Virus record (IMG/VR): IMGVR_UViG_3300009151_000152
Span: 1 to 39,762 of that record
Source of the DNA: a virus
Length of the DNA: 39,762 nt
Reading direction: 5' to 3' (one strand)
Notes under the pieces: generated by a model
Seen by the model: only the letters and a program-made list of their open reading frames with translations
Told to the model about the DNA's origin: nothing
Databases searched by the model: none
Shown here: positions 6,271 to 21,033 of the stretch, one piece after another
How the letters are laid out: each line of letters begins with the position of its first letter
Numbering within the stretch: the stretch's first letter is position 1
Program-made: the position numbers and the translations under genes

Positions 6271-6299
6271 TTGCCTTATCGTAAATTATTGTGTATATT
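6271..6299 (+). promoter_or_regulatory. Sigma70-like promoter of uvsW
   Basis: TTGCCT (6271-6276), 17 bases, TATATT (6294-6299), then seven bases to the ATG at 6307. The predicted transcript starts at or one base before the start codon. Confidence 0.6.
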
Positions 6300-6306
6300 A
6301 ATACTA

Positions 6307-7752
6307 ATGCTGTGCAAGATTGTAATTCGTGACGAAGTAAATTGTAAACTTGAAGGGCTTGATGCGGATACTCGCCGTAGGCTTGTGGCCAAGTTCAAGT
6401 ATGAAGTGCCATATGCTCGCCATCTGCCAAGCGTTAAGTTAGGACGTTGGGATGGCAAGGTTGCGTACTTTCAATTAGGTGGTAGTACCTATATCAATCT
6501 ACTGCCTGATATCATTGAATATCTCACTGAACGCAATTGGGAATTTGAAATAGAAGACAATCGTTCATCTCGTCAAACATTCGAATTTACTCAGGTAGAC
6601 GAAAGCACATTTGCACATAAGACATGGCCAAAAGGTCATCCTGTCGCTGGTCAACCAATAGTACTACGTGATTATCAAATTGAAATCATCAATAAGTTTC
6701 TTGGTAATACACAGTGTGTACAGAATGTAGCCACTGGTGCTGGCAAAACTATCATGACAGCAGCTTTGAGCCTTATGGTTGAACCATATGGTCGTTCTAT
6801 TGTTATTGTTCCAAGCAAAAGTTTAGTTCTACAAACAGAAGAAGATTACAAAAATCTTGGGCTAGATGTTGGTGTTTATTTTGGTGAACGCAAAGAATTA
6901 GGTCGCACACATACTATCTGCACATGGCAAAGCCTCAATAGTCTTTACAAGAGCACTAAAGGTACAGGCAATGAGTGGACCATGATGCTTAATGTTGCAG
7001 CAGTTATTGTTGACGAGGTGCATCAGGCAAAGGCAGAAGTTCTCAAGTCAATGCTTACTACTGAATTTGCTGATGTTCCTATTCGTTGGGGATTGACTGG
7101 AACTATTCCCAAAGAAGCATTTGAACAAGTTGCACTTAAAGTAGCAATTGGTGATGTTATCAGTCAACTTAGTGCTAGCACCCTACAAGAGGCTGGTGTG
7201 CTGTCTAATTGCCATGTAAATATTGTGCAAACAGTTGAGCACAGTGATTTTAGAAATTACCAAGAAGAATTAAAATACCTTACAACGAATAAAGATCGTC
7301 TTGACCATATGGCAAGCCTTCTTGGTGAAGTTATTAAAACAGGAAACACACTTGTGCTAGTAGACCGCCGTGAATGCGGTGATGAATTGGTTGCACGACT
7401 GCCCAACAGTGTGTTTGTTCAAGGAGACATGAAGAATGCAAAACGCAAAGAACATTATGATGAGATTGCTAACGTCAGTGACAAAATCATTGTTGCAACT
7501 TATGGAGTGGCTGCAGTTGGCATTAATGTTCCTCGTATTTTTAATCTTGTTCTTATTGAACCTGGCAAGTCATTCGTTCGTGTCATTCAATCTATCGGTC
7601 GTGGCATTCGTAAGGCAGAAGACAAAGACTTTGTTCAAATCTGGGACTTAACTGCTGATTGTAAATTTGCCAAGCGCCATCTTACAAAGCGTAAACAATT
7701 CTACAAAGAAGCTAACTATCCATTTACGCAAGAAAAGAGTATCTATAAATGA
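6307..7752 (+). CDS. uvsW: UvsW-like recombination DNA/RNA helicase
   Basis: This 481-residue superfamily 2 helicase matches T4 UvsW in length and layout. A small N-terminal domain with KLGRWDGKVAYF is typical of UvsW. RDYQ (Q motif) is followed by Walker A ATGAGKT near 142-148, DEVH at 236-239, LTGT, and a second RecA domain ending in QSIGRGIR. UvsW unwinds branched DNA and R-loops and shifts T4 from origin-dependent to recombination-dependent replication. I place the start at 6307: the frame continues upstream to a TTG at 6271, but that lies in the promoter -35 box and encodes a hydrophobic stretch absent from the family. No Shine-Dalgarno is present. Confidence 0.93.
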   Translation: MLCKIVIRDEVNCKLEGLDADTRRRLVAKFKYEVPYARHLPSVKLGRWDGKVAYFQLGGSTYINLLPDIIEYLTERNWEFEIEDNRSSRQTFEFTQVDESTFAHKTWPKGHPVAGQPIVLRDYQIEIINKFLGNTQCVQNVATGAGKTIMTAALSLMVEPYGRSIVIVPSKSLVLQTEEDYKNLGLDVGVYFGERKELGRTHTICTWQSLNSLYKSTKGTGNEWTMMLNVAAVIVDEVHQAKAEVLKSMLTTEFADVPIRWGLTGTIPKEAFEQVALKVAIGDVISQLSASTLQEAGVLSNCHVNIVQTVEHSDFRNYQEELKYLTTNKDRLDHMASLLGEVIKTGNTLVLVDRRECGDELVARLPNSVFVQGDMKNAKRKEHYDEIANVSDKIIVATYGVAAVGINVPRIFNLVLIEPGKSFVRVIQSIGRGIRKAEDKDFVQIWDLTADCKFAKRHLTKRKQFYKEANYPFTQEKSIYK

Positions 7753-9941: not shown

Positions 9942-10760
9942 ATGGACTTACTAACTGTTGTTTATCGTGATGAACTACATTTGCTTGAACATCAAGCATA
10001 CAGTATTGCGTATTATTTTCTTGATGAAATACAAAACATATACGTCATATTAAATGATGACACGCTAACTCATGATGATATTGACGTAAGTTGGTATGGC
10101 GATCTTGGTTATAAAGTCCGCATATTTCATCGCAATGAATTTGGTTATTATCCATCATCACATTTGTCAGGTTGGTATACGCAGCAAGTATGTAAGATAC
10201 TTGGCACTGCACATGCAGAAAGCAATTGGTGCATGATACTTGATGCCAAGACATGGTTTATTCGTCCATTTGAAATTAGTGAAGTATTTGACCAGTATAA
10301 CCGTGCACGATTTGCAATTTGGGATATTCCGCATAACCACTGGGATCGTGGTATTGAATATCTCAAAAAACATTATGATATCCCACGCATTGATTGGTTA
10401 AGTCCTGCTGGTGTGCCATTTCTTGCTGATGTTAAAACGATGCGAGAAATGGTCTATGAAGAACCAGATTTTATAAAGTGGTTTGAAAACAATTGTGAAT
10501 TTCACATAAATGGAATAACTGAATTTCTTTGTTATAGTGCGTGGGTTACCAAACGTGGAAACTTTAATGACTTGTATACTGGTGAACAAGTAATTGAAGT
10601 TGCTAATCTAGCCGATTATGATGTGTCTAACTTTAATGTATGGTGGGAAAAAATTCATAAAGAAAATACGCTTACTGCAAGTGTGCATCCTCGTGCTTAT
10701 AAACTTCTTGATTACGATCAACGTAAAGCATGGGACGAGTTTGTAAAGGAACGCATATGA
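9942..10760 (+). CDS. Glycosyltransferase-like protein (DUF6492-like)
   Basis: This 272-residue protein has the layout of GT-A type families related to DUF6492: an N-terminal VVYRDELHLLEHQAYSI, then a strand IYVILND, a SGWYTQQVCKI helix near residue 75, and CMILDAKTWF near residue 100, in the place of the metal-binding DxD strand. Later segments contain PAGVPFLAD and NGITEF, which could bind the acceptor. The product is unknown. It ends in an ATGA overlap with the PIG-L deacetylase, and the pair may add and then deacetylate an amino sugar. Confidence 0.65.
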   Translation: MDLLTVVYRDELHLLEHQAYSIAYYFLDEIQNIYVILNDDTLTHDDIDVSWYGDLGYKVRIFHRNEFGYYPSSHLSGWYTQQVCKILGTAHAESNWCMILDAKTWFIRPFEISEVFDQYNRARFAIWDIPHNHWDRGIEYLKKHYDIPRIDWLSPAGVPFLADVKTMREMVYEEPDFIKWFENNCEFHINGITEFLCYSAWVTKRGNFNDLYTGEQVIEVANLADYDVSNFNVWWEKIHKENTLTASVHPRAYKLLDYDQRKAWDEFVKERI

Positions 10761-11287
10761 AAGCAGTATGTATGGTTGCTCATCCAGATGATTGTGCGAT
10801 CTTTGCTTACCAATTTATTATGGAACACCGTGATTGGGATTGGACGATATGTTATCTTACCTATCAACGAACCGATCCTCGTGGAGCAGAGATAGCCCAA
10901 TTTTGGAAACAGCGTGGTATTTCAACAATGTTTGCTGGTTTACCCGATACATGGGAATATGTTGAACGTAATGAACTTGGATTTGACACAGAACCAGCAG
11001 AAAAGTGGATACGTGCTGTATGCGATGGCGCAGATATTATACTAACACACAATGAGAAAGGTGAGTATAATCATCCTCATCATATATTCATCTACAAAGT
11101 AACGAGTTTTATTGCTATACCTAAGATTTGGTTTGGAAGTTACCCTGATTATTATAATCAACTAATTAGCACAGTTACACCGCCATATGACCCAAGTGAA
11201 CTTCCACTTCACGAAGAGGTAATTCGTGGATTTGATTTGACATCGTGGAAATATTATATTACCCCTGCAGCACAAAAACTGTTATAA
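10757..11287 (+). CDS. PIG-L/LmbE family N-acetylsugar deacetylase
   Basis: The start at 10757 is set by AAAGGA upstream and the ATGA overlap; the in-frame codons before it belong to the previous gene's end. The 176-residue protein has the zinc-binding AHPDD at residues 8-12 and the second metal motif HPHH in EYNHPHHIF near residue 105. PIG-L enzymes remove the acetyl group from N-acetylglucosamine in glycolipids, mycothiol precursors and similar substrates. Being shorter than most bacterial members, it may be a compact phage version. Its stop overlaps the extended -10 promoter of the next gene. Confidence 0.8.
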   Translation: MKAVCMVAHPDDCAIFAYQFIMEHRDWDWTICYLTYQRTDPRGAEIAQFWKQRGISTMFAGLPDTWEYVERNELGFDTEPAEKWIRAVCDGADIILTHNEKGEYNHPHHIFIYKVTSFIAIPKIWFGSYPDYYNQLISTVTPPYDPSELPLHEEVIRGFDLTSWKYYITPAAQKLL

Positions 11288-11294: not shown

Positions 11295-12020
11295 ATGGAC
11301 GAATTGCGTAAAATAGCTATTGAAGCAAGAAAAGAATTCAAACCTGGTGAACACGTATGCAAATACTGTGGGCAAGGATTTGTGCGAGAAAGTACGTTAC
11401 AAGTTCATCAATGTGAACCTAAACGTCGTGATCAACAGCGTGGTGAAAAGGGAGTCATTATTGGTTTCCAAACCTGGCTACGGTTTTATGAACTTACACA
11501 AGGTTCGGCTAAGTTAAAAACCTATGAAGATTTTTGTAACAATAACTTCTACAATGCTTTTGTAAAGTTTGGACGACATTGTGTGGCAATTAGTGCAATC
11601 AATGTTAATCAGTTTATGGATTATGTGCTAAAGAAACAAATTAAGATCGATAACTGGTGTAAAGATAAAGTGTATGAAGAATATCTTTATGGTATACTAC
11701 GCAGCGAAAGTTCAAGCGATGCATTAGAACGTTCTATTTTAACCATGCAAGAATGGAGCGAAGAAACAGGAAATGATATTACCACATATTTTACTGCGGT
11801 AAGTGCCAATCGTTTTGTGCAGCATATTCTTAATGGTCGTGTAAGCTGTTGGGCAATTTATTGCTGCGATAATGGCATTGATAAACTTGGAACGCTAAGC
11901 GAAGAACAAGTTACACTTCTTATGCCTTGGATTGATCCAGAATTTTGGCAACGCAAACTACACGATTATACTGCTGATACTGAAATGACAAAGCATATAT
12001 TGACACAAGCAGGTCTTTGA
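11295..12020 (+). CDS. Zinc-finger protein of unknown function
   Basis: The 241-residue protein has a C2HC-type zinc finger near the N-terminus: C22-x2-C25-x12-H38-x-C40, followed by a basic patch PKRRDQQR. The rest is helical with many aromatic residues, and two repeats of a helix pair (FMDYVLKKQI and FVQHILNGRV) can be seen. This suggests a nucleic-acid binding regulator or replication accessory. It heads an early cluster with two small paralogues and the DnaE-palm-like protein. Confidence 0.6.
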   Translation: MDELRKIAIEARKEFKPGEHVCKYCGQGFVRESTLQVHQCEPKRRDQQRGEKGVIIGFQTWLRFYELTQGSAKLKTYEDFCNNNFYNAFVKFGRHCVAISAINVNQFMDYVLKKQIKIDNWCKDKVYEEYLYGILRSESSSDALERSILTMQEWSEETGNDITTYFTAVSANRFVQHILNGRVSCWAIYCCDNGIDKLGTLSEEQVTLLMPWIDPEFWQRKLHDYTADTEMTKHILTQAGL

Positions 12021-12274
12021 TGTCACCACGTTTTATTATTGCTCACAAAGCATCACTACAAGATATCAGAACCATATCCAGTGATATCTATGCTATTGAT
12101 TTGATAAAGAACAAAAGTATACTTGTAATTAGTGATGTTAGTTGGTGGGTTAGTAATGCAAAGGATATTGAGCAATGGTGTAATGCATCATTGACAAAGT
12201 GGTCACAACACGGTATGCTGTTAGGATTTATAAATGATGAAGAACGTAACTTATTCTTAATGAGATGGGCATAA
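12020..12274 (+). CDS. Small hypothetical protein, paralogue of the next gene
   Basis: I take the ATG at 12020, overlapping the upstream TGA, rather than the TTG one codon earlier. The 84-residue product ends in DEERNLFLMRWA, matching the end of the following protein (EEDAALYLLRWG). This ending, an acidic turn plus Leu/Phe-rich helix plus RW, occurs in other small phage proteins in my experience, but its role is unknown to me. Confidence 0.55.
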   Translation: MSPRFIIAHKASLQDIRTISSDIYAIDLIKNKSILVISDVSWWVSNAKDIEQWCNASLTKWSQHGMLLGFINDEERNLFLMRWA

Positions 12275-12480
12275 TGTCTCATGTTGATATTGAATTTTCA
12301 AAAGATATATGGCATAATATCATTGAAGTTGGCGAGTGGCTTGATGAGTATATGCCTAATCCACCAGATGATGAGCAACCCAGATGGTTTATAGCCAATG
12401 GGCAAGATGATCGGTGGGGTATTAGGTTTTACAATGAAGAAGATGCTGCACTATACCTATTGCGGTGGGGAACTAGATAA
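12274..12480 (+). CDS. Small hypothetical protein, paralogue of the previous gene
   Basis: The ATG at 12274 shares an A with the upstream TAA stop, and translation is probably coupled. The 68-residue protein is acidic, with DPPDDEQPRWF-like proline turns and the shared C-terminal EEDAALYLLRWG. It could interact with nucleic-acid enzymes encoded next to it, but nothing in the sequence proves this. Confidence 0.55.
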   Translation: MSHVDIEFSKDIWHNIIEVGEWLDEYMPNPPDDEQPRWFIANGQDDRWGIRFYNEEDAALYLLRWGTR

Positions 12481-13040
12481 TGGATATTGACATAGACTTT
12501 GGAAACCGTGAGGATATCTTGAAACTTATCAAGCATATACCTGCGTCTATCAGCCGTGACGGTACTGTTGTCAAGCATAACACTGGAGTCTATGTCAATC
12601 CTATTCCCCAAAATCCTGTTACGGGATTAAGCAATATTGATTATGATACAGCCGAAGAACTTGGCTATATGAAGTTAGACCTACTGAATGTTCATGTCTA
12701 TAATTCAGTTCGCAGTAACGAGCATCTTGACGAACTCTGTAAACGTGAACCTCAGTGGGAAAAATTAAAGGAGAGAGATTTCGTTGCCAAACTTATTCAC
12801 CTATCAAATCATTATGATATTGTTCAGCAACACTTTCCTGATACCATGGATAAATTGGCTATGGTTTTGGCTATTATACGTCCATCAAAACGATACCTTA
12901 TCGGAAAACGATGGCGAGAAGTAGCTGATGAGATTTGGGTAAAACCAGATGAGGGATATTATTTCAAGAAAGCACACGCCTATGGGTATGCGCAATTAGT
13001 AATGGTTCATATGAACCTATTAACCGAGTCTTTTAACTAA
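12480..13040 (+). CDS. Mini DNA polymerase III alpha (DnaE)-palm-like protein
   Basis: This 186-residue protein carries, in the DnaE order, short versions of the C-family polymerase core. DIDIDF (residues 2-7) corresponds to the catalytic PDxDxDF, HNTGVYVNP (33-41) to the HxAGVVI region, and AEELGYMKLDLLN (58-70) to the second catalytic Asp segment (D67). LAMVLAIIRP (126-135) and YFKKAHAYGYA (161-171) match the later fingers/NKSHA region. Complete DnaE proteins have about 1100 or more residues; here the PHP domain and large inserts are absent. Whether it polymerises is unknown; it might be a regulator or decoy derived from DnaE. This reading rests on motif order, not on an alignment. Confidence 0.6.
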   Translation: MDIDIDFGNREDILKLIKHIPASISRDGTVVKHNTGVYVNPIPQNPVTGLSNIDYDTAEELGYMKLDLLNVHVYNSVRSNEHLDELCKREPQWEKLKERDFVAKLIHLSNHYDIVQQHFPDTMDKLAMVLAIIRPSKRYLIGKRWREVADEIWVKPDEGYYFKKAHAYGYAQLVMVHMNLLTESFN

Positions 13041-13391
13041 CTGCACAACTCTACGTTTAGTTCTGCGCTCTGCAAGTTTAGCAATAGAGACAATATGTCC
13101 TTGCTGATCTTTTATATCTTTTGTAGTTAGGGTAACCGTACTGTAGCGGAATGGATTCCAACTATCTTTAAGAAATATATTAATTGGAATTAGTCTATTG
13201 GATTCCCACCACCATATTTCTGCTGCTTCTAAAAACCCAAGTTTATCTTGATCAGTTCGCAATTTATTAAACGCATACATGCTAACTATATCTGAGTCAT
13301 GATTTTGTATAATGCCAATGTAATCAGCAGTTGGGTATTTTATATAAGATAGGAACGGATATTGCTCAAGCATTTGTTCAATTGAAATCAT
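13020..13391 (-). CDS. Hypothetical protein, lone minus-strand gene
   Basis: The 123-residue protein has an unusual tryptophan cluster in AEIWWWESNRLIPINIFLK and a basic C-terminus (ERRTKRRVVQLVKRLG). The central segment recurs, in my recollection, in T4-like phage hypotheticals without a function. Its 3' end overlaps the mini-DnaE gene by 21 bases, and its 5' end abuts the late promoter of the next + strand gene. Confidence 0.5.
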   Translation of the reverse strand: MISIEQMLEQYPFLSYIKYPTADYIGIIQNHDSDIVSMYAFNKLRTDQDKLGFLEAAEIWWWESNRLIPINIFLKDSWNPFRYSTVTLTTKDIKDQQGHIVSIAKLAERRTKRRVVQLVKRLG

Positions 13392-14235: not shown

Positions 14236-15234
14236 ATGGAAATTACTGACCAAATCATGCAGCATCTGCCATGGAAACGCAAATCCACGCCTAGTAAGTG
14301 GATAAGTTTCAATGCTGTCTGCTGTCATCATAATGGTCATGCAGCAGATACTCGTGGGCGTGGCGGCGTTATGCCTTCACCAGAGGGTGGTATCACGGCA
14401 CACTGCTTTAATTGCCATTATACTGCTTCTTGGCAACCTGGCAATCGACTATCTTATAAGATGCGGCGTTGGATGTCATGGCTTGGTATGGCTGATGATA
14501 CTATCTCTCGCCTTAGCCTATTTGCGTTAGCACAATCTACCCCAGATTATCCACGAGTAGAAGCACGTGAGTTACCCACTTACGAGCCTCGTGAGCCATG
14601 TCCTGGTCGCCCTATTACAAGTTGGTTAAATGATGGATATATCAATGAAAACGATTATAACAGTCTTGAAATGGCTATCAATTATCTTGATTCTAGAGGT
14701 TTTGGTGATAAGTTATCTGATTTTTACTGGACAGACGATCCTGCTTTAAGAAACCGTGTGTTGGTTCCATTTACTTGGAAAAACAAACCTATGGGTTTCA
14801 GTGGGCGGCTGTTTGAAGATGGCAAGAAGAAAATAAAATACTTCTCTAATTATCCAAGCAATATGATATGGGGTTATGACCGTCAACACAAGGATGCGAA
14901 ATTTTGTATTGTCGTTGAAGGACTGCTTGATGCTGTCGCCATCGGTGCGCTTGCAATTTGTAGCAATGAAATTAATGATGGTCAGGCTCAAGTTATCGAA
15001 ACACTTGACCGTGATATCATTGTTGTGCCTGATCGTGATAAAGCTGGTATGGCAATGGTCAACGCTGCTCTAAAATATGGTTGGGGTGTAGCATTTCCAG
15101 AATGGGAAAACGGAATTAAAGATGTAGCAGATGCTGTTGCTAAGTATGGAACACTGTTCACCATGCGTAGTATTCTCAATAGTGTGGAATCAAATAACTT
15201 AAAGATTCGATTGATGGCGAAAAAATGGCTATAA
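14236..15234 (+). CDS. 61: DNA primase (T4 gp61-like)
   Basis: This 332-residue protein has an N-terminal zinc ribbon (C29/C30, H35 and C57-x2-C60, with HCFNCHYTASW) and a TOPRIM-type catalytic core: IVVEGLLDAVAIG with the invariant glutamate near residue 230 and VVPDRDKAG with the DxD near 265. It makes RNA primers for lagging-strand synthesis with the gp41 helicase encoded 1.6 kb downstream. In T4 these genes are close together; here a radical SAM gene and a sulfotransferase-like gene lie between them. The radical SAM gene overlaps its 3' end by 10 bases. It is leaderless from its own early promoter. Confidence 0.88.
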   Translation: MEITDQIMQHLPWKRKSTPSKWISFNAVCCHHNGHAADTRGRGGVMPSPEGGITAHCFNCHYTASWQPGNRLSYKMRRWMSWLGMADDTISRLSLFALAQSTPDYPRVEARELPTYEPREPCPGRPITSWLNDGYINENDYNSLEMAINYLDSRGFGDKLSDFYWTDDPALRNRVLVPFTWKNKPMGFSGRLFEDGKKKIKYFSNYPSNMIWGYDRQHKDAKFCIVVEGLLDAVAIGALAICSNEINDGQAQVIETLDRDIIVVPDRDKAGMAMVNAALKYGWGVAFPEWENGIKDVADAVAKYGTLFTMRSILNSVESNNLKIRLMAKKWL

Positions 15235-16133
15235 AAAGTATTACATTAGAAGTTACTAATATGTGCACCCTAAAATGTTTACGGTGTGCAAGAACTGATT
15301 TCATAAAAAAATATCCGAAGGGGTGGAAAAATCACAACTTAAATTTACAAGATTTAAAAAATTTTCTTGATATTGATTTTAAAAATACATCGTTTACTAT
15401 TTGTGGTAATTACGGCGATGCCATATATTACAATGATTTATTTCCACTGTGTCGTTGGCTAAAAGAAAATGGTTCTACTATTAAATTGCATACTAATGGT
15501 AGTTATAAAACTGCAGATTGGTGGAATAACCTAGCATCAATTCTCGATGAAAATGACGAGGTAAATTGGGCTATTGATGGCACACCTGAAAATTTCACTG
15601 AGTATAGAGTCAATGCGGATTGGGATTCAATTAAGACAGGCATTGATATTATTACAAAAACTAAAATACAGACTGTATGGCGGCATATCGTGCTTAAGTT
15701 CAATCAAGGCACTGTTTCTGAGACTGAAACACTTGCAAAATCTTTAGGTATTAAAAAATTTAGTATTGTTCACAGTGACCGCTGGGAGGAAAATGATGCC
15801 TTAAAACCTGATAGTAATTTTATAAATGCGGCTGATGAATTTAAAACTGCTTGGAAAAAAAATGTCAGAAATTTAGATATTTCTCCAAAATGTTTAACAG
15901 GCGAAACTAGTCATTTTATAACAGCAGAAGGATATTATACACCATGCTGTTATATAGCTGACCATCGTTTTTATTATAAAACCAGATGGGGTAAAGAAAA
16001 ACAAAAATATAGTATTAAAAATACAAAATTTACAGAAATTTTATCAAGACCTGATGTAATACAATATTTCAAGGATTTGACAAATAATATATGTGATGAT
16101 GTTTGCAGGTTTAGTTGTCCAAAGATAGGATGA
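15225..16133 (+). CDS. Radical SAM protein (first of three)
   Basis: The 302-residue protein has the radical SAM cluster motif C14-x3-C18-x2-C21. A barrel follows with segments such as FTICGNYGDA, IKLHTNGS and VNWAIDG, which match the usual GGE, ribose and beta6 region positions. Further cysteines in the C-terminal third (CLTG, PCC, then CDDVCRFSC) suggest an auxiliary cluster of the SPASM or twitch type. Substrate and reaction cannot be told. The gene is visibly richer in AAA, ATT and TTA than its neighbours, in line with recent acquisition. It overlaps the primase 3' end. Confidence 0.8.
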   Translation: MAIKSITLEVTNMCTLKCLRCARTDFIKKYPKGWKNHNLNLQDLKNFLDIDFKNTSFTICGNYGDAIYYNDLFPLCRWLKENGSTIKLHTNGSYKTADWWNNLASILDENDEVNWAIDGTPENFTEYRVNADWDSIKTGIDIITKTKIQTVWRHIVLKFNQGTVSETETLAKSLGIKKFSIVHSDRWEENDALKPDSNFINAADEFKTAWKKNVRNLDISPKCLTGETSHFITAEGYYTPCCYIADHRFYYKTRWGKEKQKYSIKNTKFTEILSRPDVIQYFKDLTNNICDDVCRFSCPKIG

Positions 16134-16137
16134 TGTC

Positions 16138-16857
16138 GTGAATAATATTAATAGTGACACGTTAGTATTTGTTGTTTATTCTCCTGGTGCTTTTGGAAGT
16201 TTTCTTTCTTTGGTTCTAGAGCAGTCAGAACATGTAGATCATCTATGGGACGAAACAGTTATTAATAACTTTGATTCTGATGGAGCAGCACATATAAAAT
16301 TAAGCAATTGGATTAAAAATTTTCATGACGGCAATGACATTGATAGATGGGTAGAATTGCCAGATAATGATAAAATTGAGTATATTGAATCTCGGCTTTT
16401 TAAAGTTCCGACAAACAATTTAAAAATTCATAGGTTTACTGTTCCAAGTGCCATTCCAGAATTGATTAAAATTTTTTCCAAATCAAAAATTATATATATT
16501 CAGTATGATGAACAAAATAAAGAACTTGTGGTTAATAATTTTATTAACAAAATAATAAAGACTGACAGATTTGCTAAGAATAAATTGTCCAGTATTATCA
16601 ATAAGGTACTCTCAAAGGCATCAGACATTGAAAAATTTAAATATTATCGTAAGATTGCCATTGACAGACTTGATAAAATTAACTTGAAAACTATTCCAAT
16701 AGGTGTTAAAATAGTTCCTATTGCTTCATTTTTATCATGGGAAGATTTTTTGGTAGAGTATCAACAAATATGTTCATATTTAAAAATTAAACCAGAATTA
16801 CATAAGGTCAAAGAATTGTATAATGAATTTATAAAGGTAAACGGATTGAATGGCTAA
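16138..16857 (+). CDS. Sulfotransferase-like or P-loop-like hypothetical protein
   Basis: The start is GTG, with AGGA upstream. The 239-residue protein opens with FVVYSPGAFGSFLSLVLEQ, similar in position and shape to the PAPS-binding loop of sulfotransferases (PxxGGTSL-like), and later has KIIYIQYDEQ and a C-terminal SWEDFLVEYQQICSYL typical of that family's end. The PAPS-binding residues are not clear, so this is a tentative call. It sits between a radical SAM gene and the helicase and overlaps the helicase start by eight bases. It is AT-rich like the radical SAM genes. Confidence 0.35.
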   Translation: MNNINSDTLVFVVYSPGAFGSFLSLVLEQSEHVDHLWDETVINNFDSDGAAHIKLSNWIKNFHDGNDIDRWVELPDNDKIEYIESRLFKVPTNNLKIHRFTVPSAIPELIKIFSKSKIIYIQYDEQNKELVVNNFINKIIKTDRFAKNKLSSIINKVLSKASDIEKFKYYRKIAIDRLDKINLKTIPIGVKIVPIASFLSWEDFLVEYQQICSYLKIKPELHKVKELYNEFIKVNGLNG

Positions 16858-18247
16858 ATCATTTGATGCTGGCATCCAAAAACTTTTCATTGAAATGATG
16901 CTAAGTGATCCGCAAAGTTATGTGCGGGTGCAGAATATATTCAATCCAAACAACTTTGATCGTAGTTTACAAAATGCTGCGAAGTTTATTAAAACTCACT
17001 GTGAGCAGCATACTATTATGCCGTTGCTTGAACAGATAAACGCTGCTACAAACAATACTTTTGCACCTGTGCCTGGCATGACTGATGACCATACTGCATG
17101 GTTCTTAGAAGAATTTGAAGATTTTACCAAGCAAAAAGAACTTGAGCGAGCCATTCTTGCAGCAGCAGACCTATTAGAGAAAGGTGATTTTGATCCTGTT
17201 GAAAAATTGATAAAAGATGCAGTACAAATCAGTCTAACCAAAGACCTTGGCACAGATTACTTCCTTGATCCTATTGCTCGTCTTACTAAGATTAAAGATA
17301 ATAACGGACAAACAAGCACAGGTTGGAATACACTTGACCAAAAACTATATGGTGGTTTTAATCGTGGAGAGTTGAATATCTTTGCTGGCGGTTCGGGTTC
17401 GGGTAAATCACTGTTCATGCAGAATATTGCATGCAATTGGGTATTGGCAGGTCTCAATGGCGTTTACATTACGCTTGAATTGAGTGAAGAATTGACTGCT
17501 ATGCGTATTGATAGTATGTTGACCAATACAGCAAGTAAGGATATTTTCAAGAGCATTGAAGATATTGAGATCAAGGTTAGAATGGTTGGCAAGAAGAGTG
17601 GTAAGTTCCAAATCAAATATCTGCCAGCACAAAGCACTATCAACGATGTTCGCTCATATTGTAAAGAACTTCAAGTCCGCACAGGTCGCAAACTTGACTT
17701 TATCATGATTGACTATCTTGATTTGTTGATGCCAGTTAGTGCAAAAGTTAGCCCAAGTGATTTGTTTGTTAAGGACAAATATGTCTCCGAAGAAATTCGT
17801 AACTTTGCTAAAGAAATGGACATTCTACTTGTTACCGCATCACAGTTAAACCGTGCATCGGTTGAAGAAGTAGAGTTTGATCATTCGCACATTTCTGGCG
17901 GTATTTCTAAGATTAATACTGCTGATAATCTATTCGGTATCTTTACATCACGTAGTATGCGTGAACATGGCAAGTATCAGCTACAATTAATGAAAACTCG
18001 TAGTAGTAGTGGTGTTGGTCAGAAAGTTGAACTTGAATTTGATATTGATAGTCTGCGTATTCGTGATATGCCAGATGACGGAGAAGCGCATCAGTTTAAA
18101 AAACCTGTTAGCAGTATCTTTGATGGTGTCAAGAACAAGAGTACAGTTGTACCAAGTAGCGAACCAGAAGAAAGCGGCAAGATAACAGCAGATGTAAATA
18201 GCAGTAAGTTAAAACAAATGCTGGCTAACATCAAACAGAAAAATTAA
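16850..18247 (+). CDS. 41: Replicative DNA helicase (T4 gp41-like, DnaB family)
   Basis: The protein has 465 residues. The RecA-like domain has Walker A GGSGSGKS at 180-187 and Walker B FIMIDYLDLL near 283-292, with an arginine-finger region around FTSRSMREHG. A short N-terminal domain (about 1-130) would bind the primase. gp41 unwinds DNA 5' to 3' at the fork. The last 573 bases of the gene are repeated at 19428-20000. The start is ATG at 16850 behind AAAGG. The radical SAM gene at 18250 starts two bases after its stop. Confidence 0.93.
   Translation: MAKSFDAGIQKLFIEMMLSDPQSYVRVQNIFNPNNFDRSLQNAAKFIKTHCEQHTIMPLLEQINAATNNTFAPVPGMTDDHTAWFLEEFEDFTKQKELERAILAAADLLEKGDFDPVEKLIKDAVQISLTKDLGTDYFLDPIARLTKIKDNNGQTSTGWNTLDQKLYGGFNRGELNIFAGGSGSGKSLFMQNIACNWVLAGLNGVYITLELSEELTAMRIDSMLTNTASKDIFKSIEDIEIKVRMVGKKSGKFQIKYLPAQSTINDVRSYCKELQVRTGRKLDFIMIDYLDLLMPVSAKVSPSDLFVKDKYVSEEIRNFAKEMDILLVTASQLNRASVEEVEFDHSHISGGISKINTADNLFGIFTSRSMREHGKYQLQLMKTRSSSGVGQKVELEFDIDSLRIRDMPDDGEAHQFKKPVSSIFDGVKNKSTVVPSSEPEESGKITADVNSSKLKQMLANIKQKN
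17669..18241 (+). repeat. Direct repeat copy A (3' end of helicase gene)
   Basis: This stretch aligns without any gap to 19428-20000 (offset 1759). By hand count about 74 of 573 bases differ, mostly in third codon positions, with about six amino acid changes. The differences are not spread evenly: 18026-18183 matches with one mismatch. Confidence 0.9.
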
Positions 18248-18249
18248 TA

Positions 18250-19398
18250 ATGACTTCATCATCATCATTTTGCTACCAACCTTGGACAGGTATTGATATA
18301 GATAATAGTGGTTCTATTAGACCTTGTTGCAAGTTTAATACTAAAATTGCAGAGGATTGGGAAGGTTATAATATCAATAATATGAGTATTGATGATTATA
18401 AAAAAAGCAACGGGTTGGCAAAATTAAAAGAATCTTTTGTATCTGGTCAAAAACCAGCAGCATGTGAGCGTTGTTGGAAAGATGAGGCAGCAAATTATCC
18501 TAGTAAACGAACAATGGACGGCGAGCGATGGAAGAAAGAATTTAATGACTTTAATTTAACTGCATCAAATACGTTACTATTGACGCTGCCACTTGGTAAT
18601 ATATGTAATTTAAAATGCAGAATTTGTAGTCCAAACTCAAGTAGTAGTTGGAAAAAAGAATTTCAAGATATCTATAATATAAAGTATAAGGTAGCAGATT
18701 GGGCCAACAATGATTTTGTATGGCAATCATTGTTGGAAATGACCGATGATATTTTAGAATTACATTTACATGGTGGTGAACCATTTTTATATGACAACGA
18801 GAAACATTTAGAAATCTTAAATAAAATTTCTAATTCTCCCAATGCCAGTAAAATTAGATTACATTATAATACAAATGGTACTGTATTCCCAGATCAAAAA
18901 TATTGGGATGCATTTGACAAGATAGGATGGGTTGATATTCAACCTAGTATCGATGATATTGGTGCTCGATTTGAGTATAATAGAAAAAATGCCAAATGGG
19001 ATGAAGTTAAAGAAAACTTAATAAAATATAGAGACTATATTAATATTCGTCCCAATATGCAGTTGAGCATCAGCACAACAGTTAGTGTGTTTACAATCTA
19101 TTATCTTGACGAGATGTTTACATATTTTATGGATAACAAACTACCAAAACCTTGGTTGGGAAAATTATCTAAACCTGAGTATTATAGATGTTCTATATTT
19201 CCATCTGAGCACAAAGAAATTATCAAGAATAAGTTATTGTCTAGTAGTCATGAGGATTTGCAAAACATAAGTCAATGGTTAAACGATGATGACTCTGTGC
19301 TGTTGGATAAATTTAGGGAAAACATTAAATTACACGATGCGTACAGAAAAGAATCATTTAAACAAGTATTTCCCGAAATTTATTCATGGTTGTTCTAA
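18250..19398 (+). CDS. Radical SAM protein with twitch/SPASM-type Cys (second of three)
   Basis: This 382-residue protein has the cluster motif C119-x3-C123-x2-C126 and GGEP at 175-178, preceded by a cysteine-containing N-terminal region (C8, C26, C27, C72 and C75 in FCYQPW, RPCC and CERC) that looks like an auxiliary cluster site. This layout matches the twitch-domain radical SAM proteins I know from marine phages. The reaction is unknown; peptide or sugar modification are both possible. It starts two bases after the helicase stop and ends 24-30 bases before the second helicase copy, so it lies between the two direct repeats. Confidence 0.8.
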   Translation: MTSSSSFCYQPWTGIDIDNSGSIRPCCKFNTKIAEDWEGYNINNMSIDDYKKSNGLAKLKESFVSGQKPAACERCWKDEAANYPSKRTMDGERWKKEFNDFNLTASNTLLLTLPLGNICNLKCRICSPNSSSSWKKEFQDIYNIKYKVADWANNDFVWQSLLEMTDDILELHLHGGEPFLYDNEKHLEILNKISNSPNASKIRLHYNTNGTVFPDQKYWDAFDKIGWVDIQPSIDDIGARFEYNRKNAKWDEVKENLIKYRDYINIRPNMQLSISTTVSVFTIYYLDEMFTYFMDNKLPKPWLGKLSKPEYYRCSIFPSEHKEIIKNKLLSSSHEDLQNISQWLNDDDSVLLDKFRENIKLHDAYRKESFKQVFPEIYSWLF

Positions 19399-19421: not shown

Positions 19422-20003
19422 AAACATCTGCAAATTCGTACAGGTCGTAAGGTAGACTTTATCATGATTGACTATCTTGATCTGCTTATGCCTGTTAGCG
19501 CCAAAGTTAGCCCAAGTGATTTGTTTGTTAAAGACAAATATGTATCGGAAGAAATTCGTAACTTTGCTAAAGAAATGCAAATCTTGTTGGTTACAGCATC
19601 GCAGTTAAATCGTGCTAGTGTAGAAGAAGTAGAGTTTGACCATAGTCATATTAGTGGTGGTATTTCTAAAATCAACACTGCGGATAATCTATTTGGTATT
19701 TTTACTTCTCGCAGTATGCGTGAACATGGCAAGTATCAGTTACAGATTATGAAAACTCGCTCTTCAAGTGGTGTTGGACAAAAGGTTGAACTTGAATTTG
19801 ATATTGATAGTCTGCGTATTCGTGATATGCCAGATGACGGAGAAGCGCATCAGTTTAAAAAACCTGTCAGCAGTATCTTTGATGGTGTCAAGAACAAGAG
19901 TACAGTTGTACCAAGTAGCGAACCAGAAGAAAGCGGCAAGATTGTGGCAGATATAAACAGCAGTAAACTAAAACAAATGCTTGCTAATATTAAACAGAAA
20001 TAA
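19422..20003 (+). pseudogene. Truncated second copy of helicase gene 3' end
   Basis: The frame is open from about 19419 to the stop at 20003 and encodes the last 190 or so residues of the helicase, from LQIRTGRKVDF to the C-terminus. It lacks the Walker A domain, and no start codon with Shine-Dalgarno precedes it; the first in-frame ATG is at 19464. About 18% of bases differ from copy A except in one tract, but nearly all changes are silent, so the copy evolved under selection as a functional helicase before being placed here. I read it as a scar of recombination, though a short C-terminal product is possible. Confidence 0.85.
19428..20000 (+). repeat. Direct repeat copy B (second helicase 3' end)
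   Basis: Gap-free partner of 17669-18241. The segment 19785-19942 is identical to 18026-18183 except at 19868. Confidence 0.9.
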
Positions 20004-20019
20004 AAACTTAAATAAAATT

Positions 20020-21033
20020 ATGATTTCTCTTAACAATATTAAACATTTACATATGGAATTTAGTTCACTGTGTAATGCAAGATGTCCATTGTGTCCCCGT
20101 AATTTATTTGGTTATCCATACAATAGTGGATATGAAGAAACTAGCTTAACACTTGAATTAATTAAAAAATCATTTTCGCCGCAGTTTGTTAATCAACTTG
20201 ACCGTGGTATACTAGTTAATGGAAACTTTGGCGATTTTACTGCTAATTTAGAATCACTACAAATATTGGATTATTTTAAAACTTGTAATCCAAAACTAAA
20301 AATACAAATCAGCACAAACGGCAGTGCAAGAAATACAGATTTTTGGCATGAACTTGGTAAATTTTCAAATGCTATTGTAGAGTTTTGTTTGGATGGATTA
20401 GAAGATACACACGCAATATATCGTCAAGATACAAATTTTAATCGAATACTTAAAAATGCAAAAGCATTCATGGATGCTGGTGGTGTTGCTATATGGAAGA
20501 TGATACGTTTTGACCATAACAAGCACCAAGTTGAAGAAGCAGAACAGCTTTCTAAAAAATTAGGATTTTCAAAATTTCAACTTGAGGACCATGGCAGAAA
20601 TACTGGACCAGTGTTTGACCGTGATGGTAAATTAATTCGCACTATGGGCAACTACACTGGATTTACTGATATTGAAAATATAATTAAATTTCAAAGTGAT
20701 TCAAATAAAATTTATTCACATAAACCATATGTTCAAGGTTTGACTCATTCTTGTTTTACAAAAGATAATAATTCAATTTATATTGCAGCAAATGGATTAG
20801 TTTATCCTTGTTGTTATATGGCATTTAATCCGTTAACATATGACCAAGGTTTTAACGGATTTATTAATCGTCAAATTAAACCATTAGTAAAACATAATAG
20901 TTTACATGAACATGATTTAGAAACTTGCATTGGTTGGTTTAGCAGTGTTGAAAGTGCATGGACACGGGATAGCTATGAAAACGGTCGTTTAATACAATGC
21001 GATCAGGTGTGTGGAAAATTTGAAACCGCATAA
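20020..21033 (+). CDS. Radical SAM protein (third of three)
   Basis: The ATG at 20020 is chosen because the upstream in-frame TTG at 19981 lies in the helicase copy. The 337-residue protein has C18-x3-C22-x2-C25 (CNARCPLC), a barrel with VNGNFGDFTANLE, QISTNGS and VEFCLDG, and C-terminal cysteines (YPCCYMA, then CDQVCGKF) suggesting an auxiliary cluster. It is closer in layout to the protein at 15225 than to the one at 18250. It follows a helicase 3' end, just as the gene at 18250 does, so the position after gp41 seems to be a cargo slot. Confidence 0.8.
   Translation: MISLNNIKHLHMEFSSLCNARCPLCPRNLFGYPYNSGYEETSLTLELIKKSFSPQFVNQLDRGILVNGNFGDFTANLESLQILDYFKTCNPKLKIQISTNGSARNTDFWHELGKFSNAIVEFCLDGLEDTHAIYRQDTNFNRILKNAKAFMDAGGVAIWKMIRFDHNKHQVEEAEQLSKKLGFSKFQLEDHGRNTGPVFDRDGKLIRTMGNYTGFTDIENIIKFQSDSNKIYSHKPYVQGLTHSCFTKDNNSIYIAANGLVYPCCYMAFNPLTYDQGFNGFINRQIKPLVKHNSLHEHDLETCIGWFSSVESAWTRDSYENGRLIQCDQVCGKFETA

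Follow-up and report, generated by a model that had tools for sequence, protein, structure and literature searches.

A phage gene for the C-terminal half of a putative split minimal DNA polymerase III alpha

The gene at positions 12480–13040 of the window (the whole stretch of viral DNA analysed here, 39,762 nucleotides) encodes a small phage-specific protein that starts at the first catalytic strand of a C-family DNA polymerase and carries the catalytic aspartates. It adds a member to the split minimal DNA polymerase III alpha that Iyer et al. 2021 (PMC7824862) described in group 2.2 jumbo phages, and it probably contributes the catalytic half to an accessory C-family DNA polymerase of two subunits acting beside a T4-like replicase.

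12480–13040, + strand: C-terminal half (C-half) of a putative split minimal DNA polymerase III alpha (open reading frame, PHROG 11778, AlphaFold model and both fold searches)

The open reading frame begins with ATG and its product of 186 residues has the N-terminus MDIDIDF; location and length are exactly those given in an earlier note on this DNA, and the five DnaE-like motifs listed there (DIDIDF, HNTGVYV, GYMKLDLLN, LAIIRP and FKKAHAYGYA) are all present and in the order claimed. In hmmscan against the PHROGs the protein matches PHROG 11778, 'DNA polymerase', over residues 1–183 (E 6e-60), with a weak second match to PHROG 405, a long phage polymerase family (E 7.6e-5). A tblastn search of 50,697 phage records gave 63 with a match (60 listed by tblastn and three further names, in agreement with its organism tallies), all covering at least 80% of the query and all with an identity below 60%. 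Phages RaK2, GAP32, CBB, 121Q, PA5oct, Atu_ph07, XacN1 and SCTP-2 are among them, and in IMG/VR at least 531 stretches encode a relative. Searched as a single sequence against Pfam, NCBIfam and the PDB sequences the protein finds no polymerase, and its PDB matches are unrelated proteins (E 0.33–0.69), so that the link to polymerases needs profiles or structure.

Both checks named in the earlier note, a palm-like fold in a structure prediction and a C-family polymerase in profile searches, gave a match. The AlphaFold model of the C-half, built on a 47-sequence alignment, has a pLDDT of 92.9 and a pTM of 0.83, and the palm-like fold is seen in the model, in Foldseek and in VIA-align. With Foldseek against the PDB, rows 1–14 are C-family polymerases (best E 8.0e-4) and the next, unrelated row has E 0.72; with VIA-align, rows 1–16 are C-family polymerases with Z 6.1–9.2, followed by an unrelated row at Z 3.4. 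The best VIA-align match is PolC 3f2c (Z 9.2, 182 residues, rmsd 3.4 Å), and DnaE 3e0d has Z 8.8. The entire chain is covered, matching E. coli DnaE 401–780, a range that puts 401 at model residue 1 and is one off the sequence register. The ranges for Taq (462) and PolC (972) fit D2/D4 by what we take to be the numbering of these enzymes, and that for M. tuberculosis (420) would fit by a deduced numbering. A profile of 47 C-halves against the PDB sequences gave eight matches, seven of which are Pol III alpha at E 0.23–1.6; these values are not significant alone, and the identity of the C-half therefore relies on the polymerase matches being of one family, together with the fold. Aligned with hhalign to six DnaE-type sequences the C-half reaches 92.3% globally and 80.0% in the best local alignment, a second local alignment (30.3%) being misplaced. 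Homology to Pol III alpha with the catalytic motifs kept, as claimed earlier, is supported, and the observation is far above chance by the PHROG 11778 match, the relatives in 63 phage records and the IMG/VR stretches.

With DnaE and PolC the protein shares the catalytic aspartates, the K553–D555 motif, the RP motif, the KxHAxxYA steric-gate motif and the palm/fingers fold. It differs from them in what is missing at about one sixth of the length of the single-chain DnaE: there is no PHP domain (no Pfam match, and the 186 residues align to E. coli 401–780 only), no GxGRGS dNTP-binding helix in the chain, which starts after it, the motif being found in a separate N-terminal half (N-half), no thumb between the catalytic strands of the model, where only short elements are seen, and nothing beyond about E. 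coli residue 780. DnaE and PolC are one chain, whereas the phage enzyme would be two.

The motifs are located as follows.

12483–12500, + strand: first catalytic strand DIDIDF, with D2 at E. coli D401 and D4 at E. coli D403
12573–12590, + strand: KHNTGV, counterpart of E. coli KHAGGV (hhalign)
12672–12680, + strand: K65-L66-D67, at E. coli K553-F554-D555, with D67 as the predicted third catalytic aspartate (hhalign and E. coli numbering)
12879–12884, + strand: R134-P135 of LAIIRP in the fingers, counterpart of E. coli ALFRPG (profile alignment and hhalign)
12963–12992, + strand: FKKAHAYGYA, with H166 at E. coli H760 (hhalign alignment to YGFNKSHSAAYA)

E. coli DnaE reads P400-D401-F402-D403-V404-D405 and K553-F554-D555, and hhalign, run with the C-half alignment headed by Phosso, pairs K65/D67 with K553/D555, R134-P135 with the RPG at 639, and FKKAHAYGYA with YGFNKSHSAAYA. 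The catalytic residues of the E. coli enzyme are D401, D403 and D555 and its steric gate is H760, according to PMC8485763, and on these residues, the numbering and hhalign D2, D4 and D67 are the predicted catalytic aspartates and H166 the predicted steric-gate equivalent. The three aspartates sit in the C-family palm in model and alignment. The catalytic set D4/D6 and D67 proposed in the earlier note thus holds for D4 and D67, and D2 takes the place of D6, which corresponds to E. coli D405 and is invariant as well, outside the named catalytic set.

Twelve residues (D2, D4, D6, H33, G36, K65, D67, R134, P135, K137, H166 and Y170) are invariant in all 75 distinct C-halves, which, like the 81 N-halves scored for conservation, are mostly loci found by patterns including conserved motifs. 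The same twelve are invariant in all rows of a less motif-biased set of 18, where only the window and locus L015 come from the original finding or the pattern scan (of the 17 N-halves paired with it, 11 are pattern-selected). R10 differs in three of the 18 rows, and F162, K163 and K164 vary too. The stretch between the catalytic strands is strongly shortened with the thumb missing, and the spacing from D4 to D67 is 63 residues compared with 152 in E. coli (D403–D555). Conservation of the metal ligands, K65 and H166, and of the GRGS motif in the partner would argue for catalysis with sugar discrimination.

The N-half is a phage protein of about 175 residues, whose gene lies near a clamp-loader gene in relatives. 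It matches Pfam DNA_pol3_alpha (E 2.1e-8) and PHROG 11127 (E 1.7e-87), and hhalign to DnaE-type sequences gives 96.7–98.3%. In phage CBB it is CBB_328, a protein of 172 residues annotated as DNA polymerase III alpha that carries GLGRGSSVSS and ends with NEFLKW; the CBB homologue of the window C-half is CBB_287, annotated as 'putative membrane protein', and the two genes are about 33 kb apart. An alpha subunit is mentioned in the papers on CBB and Atu_ph07, as truncated in CBB, and this truncated subunit is CBB_328. A model of the N-half of locus L117 has a pLDDT of 88.0 and a pTM of 0.64, and all 15 VIA-align rows are C-family polymerases, with the E. coli DnaE range 278–393 and with structural matches limited to model residues 77–176. 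Since the N-half stops at about DnaE 393 and the C-half starts at about 400, the split point as modelled cuts through a single active site, leaving the dNTP-binding helix on one side and the catalytic strand on the other. Stop-to-stop frames are 182–226 residues in 97 of 97 C-halves and 155–210 in 85 of 86 N-halves, the remaining one having 310, and a fused form was seen in none of these frames. As the GRGS helix, the PHP domain and the thumb are missing, the C-half is no free-standing minimal polymerase; the 'minimal C-family enzyme' of the earlier note is true of the protein pair only, the C-half being without the dNTP-binding GRGS half, which is on a second phage gene in the relatives.

The families are those of the split enzyme of Iyer et al. 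2021, PHROG 11778 for the C-half and PHROG 11127 for the N-half, and the likeness extends to a dNTP-binding N-half and a catalytic, template-binding C-half on distant genes and to a family-B polymerase alongside, in the relatives. The window member differs in that it is from an uncultivated phage fragment where the N-half is not seen, and the family, described there in jumbo phages, is here extended to a 141-kb Alishewanella phage.

Among the named phages 60 records have an N-half match at E<=1e-9, and every one of them also belongs to the 63 records with a C-half. At E<=1e-3 there are 68 records, and the eight weaker than 1e-9, which we assume to be ordinary DnaE genes, were excluded from the count. 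The C-half records without an N-half by BLAST at E<=1e-9 are PP728206.1 (a 109-kb record), OQ508956.1 and OQ508957.1, and in OQ508956.1 the N-half is found by profile (E 2.5e-17). This is Alishewanella phage Slicko01, with the N-half at 79.0 kb, about 11 kb from the C-half, and it places the split polymerase below the 200-kb limit of jumbo phages. A clamp-loader gene lies between the two halves in Slicko01 (L190, which is OQ508956.1 59597–76151, reversed, and L193). Across phages the halves are from about 11 kb (Slicko01) to more than 200 kb (Phosso) apart.

The window, a fragment of 39.8 kb, gave no N-half when searched for it. Candidates for the N-half of its phage are L117/L118, as L118 shares its sample number with L009, and L009 is 99.97% identical to the window over 11,756 bases. 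Of 14 IMG/VR contigs chosen for a C-half one has the N-half, namely the relative G001 (338 kb); in G002 and G010 the N-half query matches only in frames of the 582-residue polymerase type described below, and in the other 11, each of at most 164 kb, there is none. In the other direction 15 contigs were searched, 14 long ones chosen for the N-half and that of L015, with 13 raw matches of which one was dropped, and the C-half is present in 11 of the 14 and in L015. The match dropped, in G027 (E 2.3e-4), was taken as a chance match, as the ORFs examined in its locus L187 look unrelated. G016, G017 and G027 have no C-half, also with two wider profiles, and are perhaps incomplete, since the window helicase was not found there either (one protein query). 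A family-B polymerase (PF00136) is present in 19 of the 19 related genomes tested, in accordance with the kind of phage supposed in the earlier note. Distances between N-halves and between C-halves are correlated in 17 pairs (Mantel r 0.738, reached by 0 of 5000 permutations), as shared descent alone would also predict.

The gene is surrounded by other genes, several of which are conserved neighbours.

6271–7752, + strand: UvsW-like DNA helicase, conserved upstream neighbour (PHROG 16, E 2.9e-71)
11295–12020, + strand: 241-residue protein of PHROG 11058 with one C2H2-like finger, upstream neighbour (zf-C2H2, E 0.0011)
13020–13391, − strand: convergent gene for 123 residues, PHROG 11637, overlapping the 3' end of the C-half gene (ORF and PHROGs)
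14236–15234, + strand: DNA primase, conserved neighbour (PHROG 47, E 7.9e-31)
16850–18247, + strand: DnaB-like replicative helicase, conserved neighbour (PHROG 19, E 3.5e-65)

In Phosso, RaK2, PAC2 and CBB the C-half is likewise followed by a small convergent gene, one or two more genes, the primase and the DnaB-type helicase, and all of these but Phosso have uvsW upstream. In Slicko01 a clamp-loader subunit gene is found just upstream instead, with primase and helicase downstream. A convergent overlapping small gene is likewise present in Phosso, RaK2, PAC2, CBB and Slicko01, and in Pseudomonas phage PAC2 a C2H2 protein is also encoded before the C-half. The zinc-finger neighbour of the earlier note is thus present, with a zf-C2H2 match that is weak and below the Pfam cut-off. 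Directly upstream of the C-half is an ORF of 71 residues (12265–12480), missing in L011, L015 and L033, where the alignment jumps from 12274 to 12479, its DNA being present in L031. Upstream of the zinc-finger gene an ORF of 185 residues (10730–11287) without a useful PHROG match has an AHPDD stretch, which we take to resemble LmbE-type deacetylases. The last ~179 residues of the DnaB-like helicase are duplicated at 19464–20003 with 97.8% amino acid and 86.9% nucleotide identity, the two being separated by a radical-SAM gene (18250–19398); so large a number of silent differences points to recombination with a related phage or to selection acting on each of the two copies. Three radical-SAM-type genes are located around the primase and helicase, of which 18250–19398 and 19981–21033 match radical-SAM families, and 15225–16133 is so called by eye and by similarity to the product of 19981–21033 only (24.8%, E 2.8e-21).

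We infer a physical assembly of the two halves, a polymerase activity and a cellular role for the assembly. The C-half would bring the three metal-binding aspartates (D2, D4 and D67) and, with H166 as the steric-gate histidine, a minimal fingers part, and the N-half, encoded elsewhere, would bring the GRGS helix, which in DnaE holds the incoming dNTP. Together they would reassemble a pol-beta-type palm with an active site common to both chains. As the PHP domain, the thumb and the clamp-binding parts are missing, the enzyme should carry out short-stretch synthesis of low processivity beside the T4-like family-B replicase; with the thumb and the C-terminal regions lost, synthesis would be short-range or would depend on partners. 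The neighbourhood of uvsW, primase and helicase suggests possible roles in filling gaps, in handling primers or lesions, or in synthesis linked to recombination. Against a two-chain enzyme count that no N-half was found in the 39.8-kb window and no C-half in G016, G017 and G027, the distances between the genes, about 11 kb to more than 200 kb, and that without thumb and PHP domain the grip on DNA and the processivity are left without account.

An active nucleotidyltransferase that does not copy a template, i.e. a primer-starting, tailing or end-processing enzyme on the pol-beta-like palm, is an unlikely alternative. The absence of a thumb and the very short fingers would suit it, and the pol-beta fold superfamily includes many transferases that are not polymerases; against it, the steric-gate histidine and its fingers motif have been retained, and such phages already encode a primase.

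Slightly less probable again is a host-takeover factor, where both small proteins would mimic pieces of the host Pol III alpha and bind replisome partners or DNA of the host, so that host replication is blocked or redirected without synthesis. That fragments of an alpha subunit occur in phages with their own family-B polymerase, small and on separate genes, is in line with this. A decoy could do without invariant catalytic aspartates, an invariant lysine and an invariant steric-gate histidine, but none of these varies in the 18 rows; it is also the active site that is kept and not the C-terminal regions containing the clamp, tau and OB parts, and the resemblance to the host DnaE is very low, with no polymerase in the single-sequence PDB matches. 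The inhibitor or adaptor acting on the host polymerase, proposed in the earlier note, fits worse than a catalytic half of a two-subunit polymerase.

The C-half is under purifying selection, with a dN/dS of 0.088–0.154 for the window gene against ten relatives. The relic considered in the earlier note would be a captured dnaE gene in decay, as the sixth of the DnaE length and the missing PHP domain and thumb would suggest; this is contradicted by the dN/dS of 0.09–0.15 in all ten comparisons, the tight length of the 97 stop-to-stop frames (182–226 residues), the at least 531 loci and the conserved gene neighbourhood, and is very improbable.

Close relatives of the window phage also encode a compact single-chain DnaE-like polymerase of 582 residues without PHP domain, separated from the C-half by about 6 kb and encoded on the opposite strand (L092:1264–3012, + strand, on the contig of L015, and also on the contigs of L011 and L033), with the nearest named match at 37.2% in uncultured phage LR756508.1. 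It shares the motif order with the split enzyme, and its GRGS-type helix adjoins the DIDID strand; it differs in being one polypeptide from a separate gene, with more of palm and fingers kept. No unsplit C-family polymerase was found in the window, either with PF07733 or in tblastn with the 582-residue protein, where matches were at chance level (best E 0.043).

The split enzyme is a putative one, predicted in 2021; the literature searched, with subscription journals mostly outside, contained no experimental test, and the main text of the 2026 review 'The biology of jumbo phages' does not contain 'DNA polymerase'. The chances are about even that it is a natural two-chain polymerase of about 360 residues in total, with one active site assembled in trans from the dNTP-binding helix on one chain and the metal-binding aspartates and steric gate on the other, serving as a dedicated second polymerase of large and mid-sized phages, possibly switched on by assembly and possibly near the ancestral core of bacterial replicases. 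At this size it would, to our knowledge, be the smallest C-family polymerase, and the C-family replicases otherwise known to us are large single-chain enzymes. A conserved pair of halves of about 180 residues each offers a direct test of the minimal fold for DNA synthesis, and bears on why a bacterial-type polymerase is retained as a second one by so many phages that have a T4-like polymerase.
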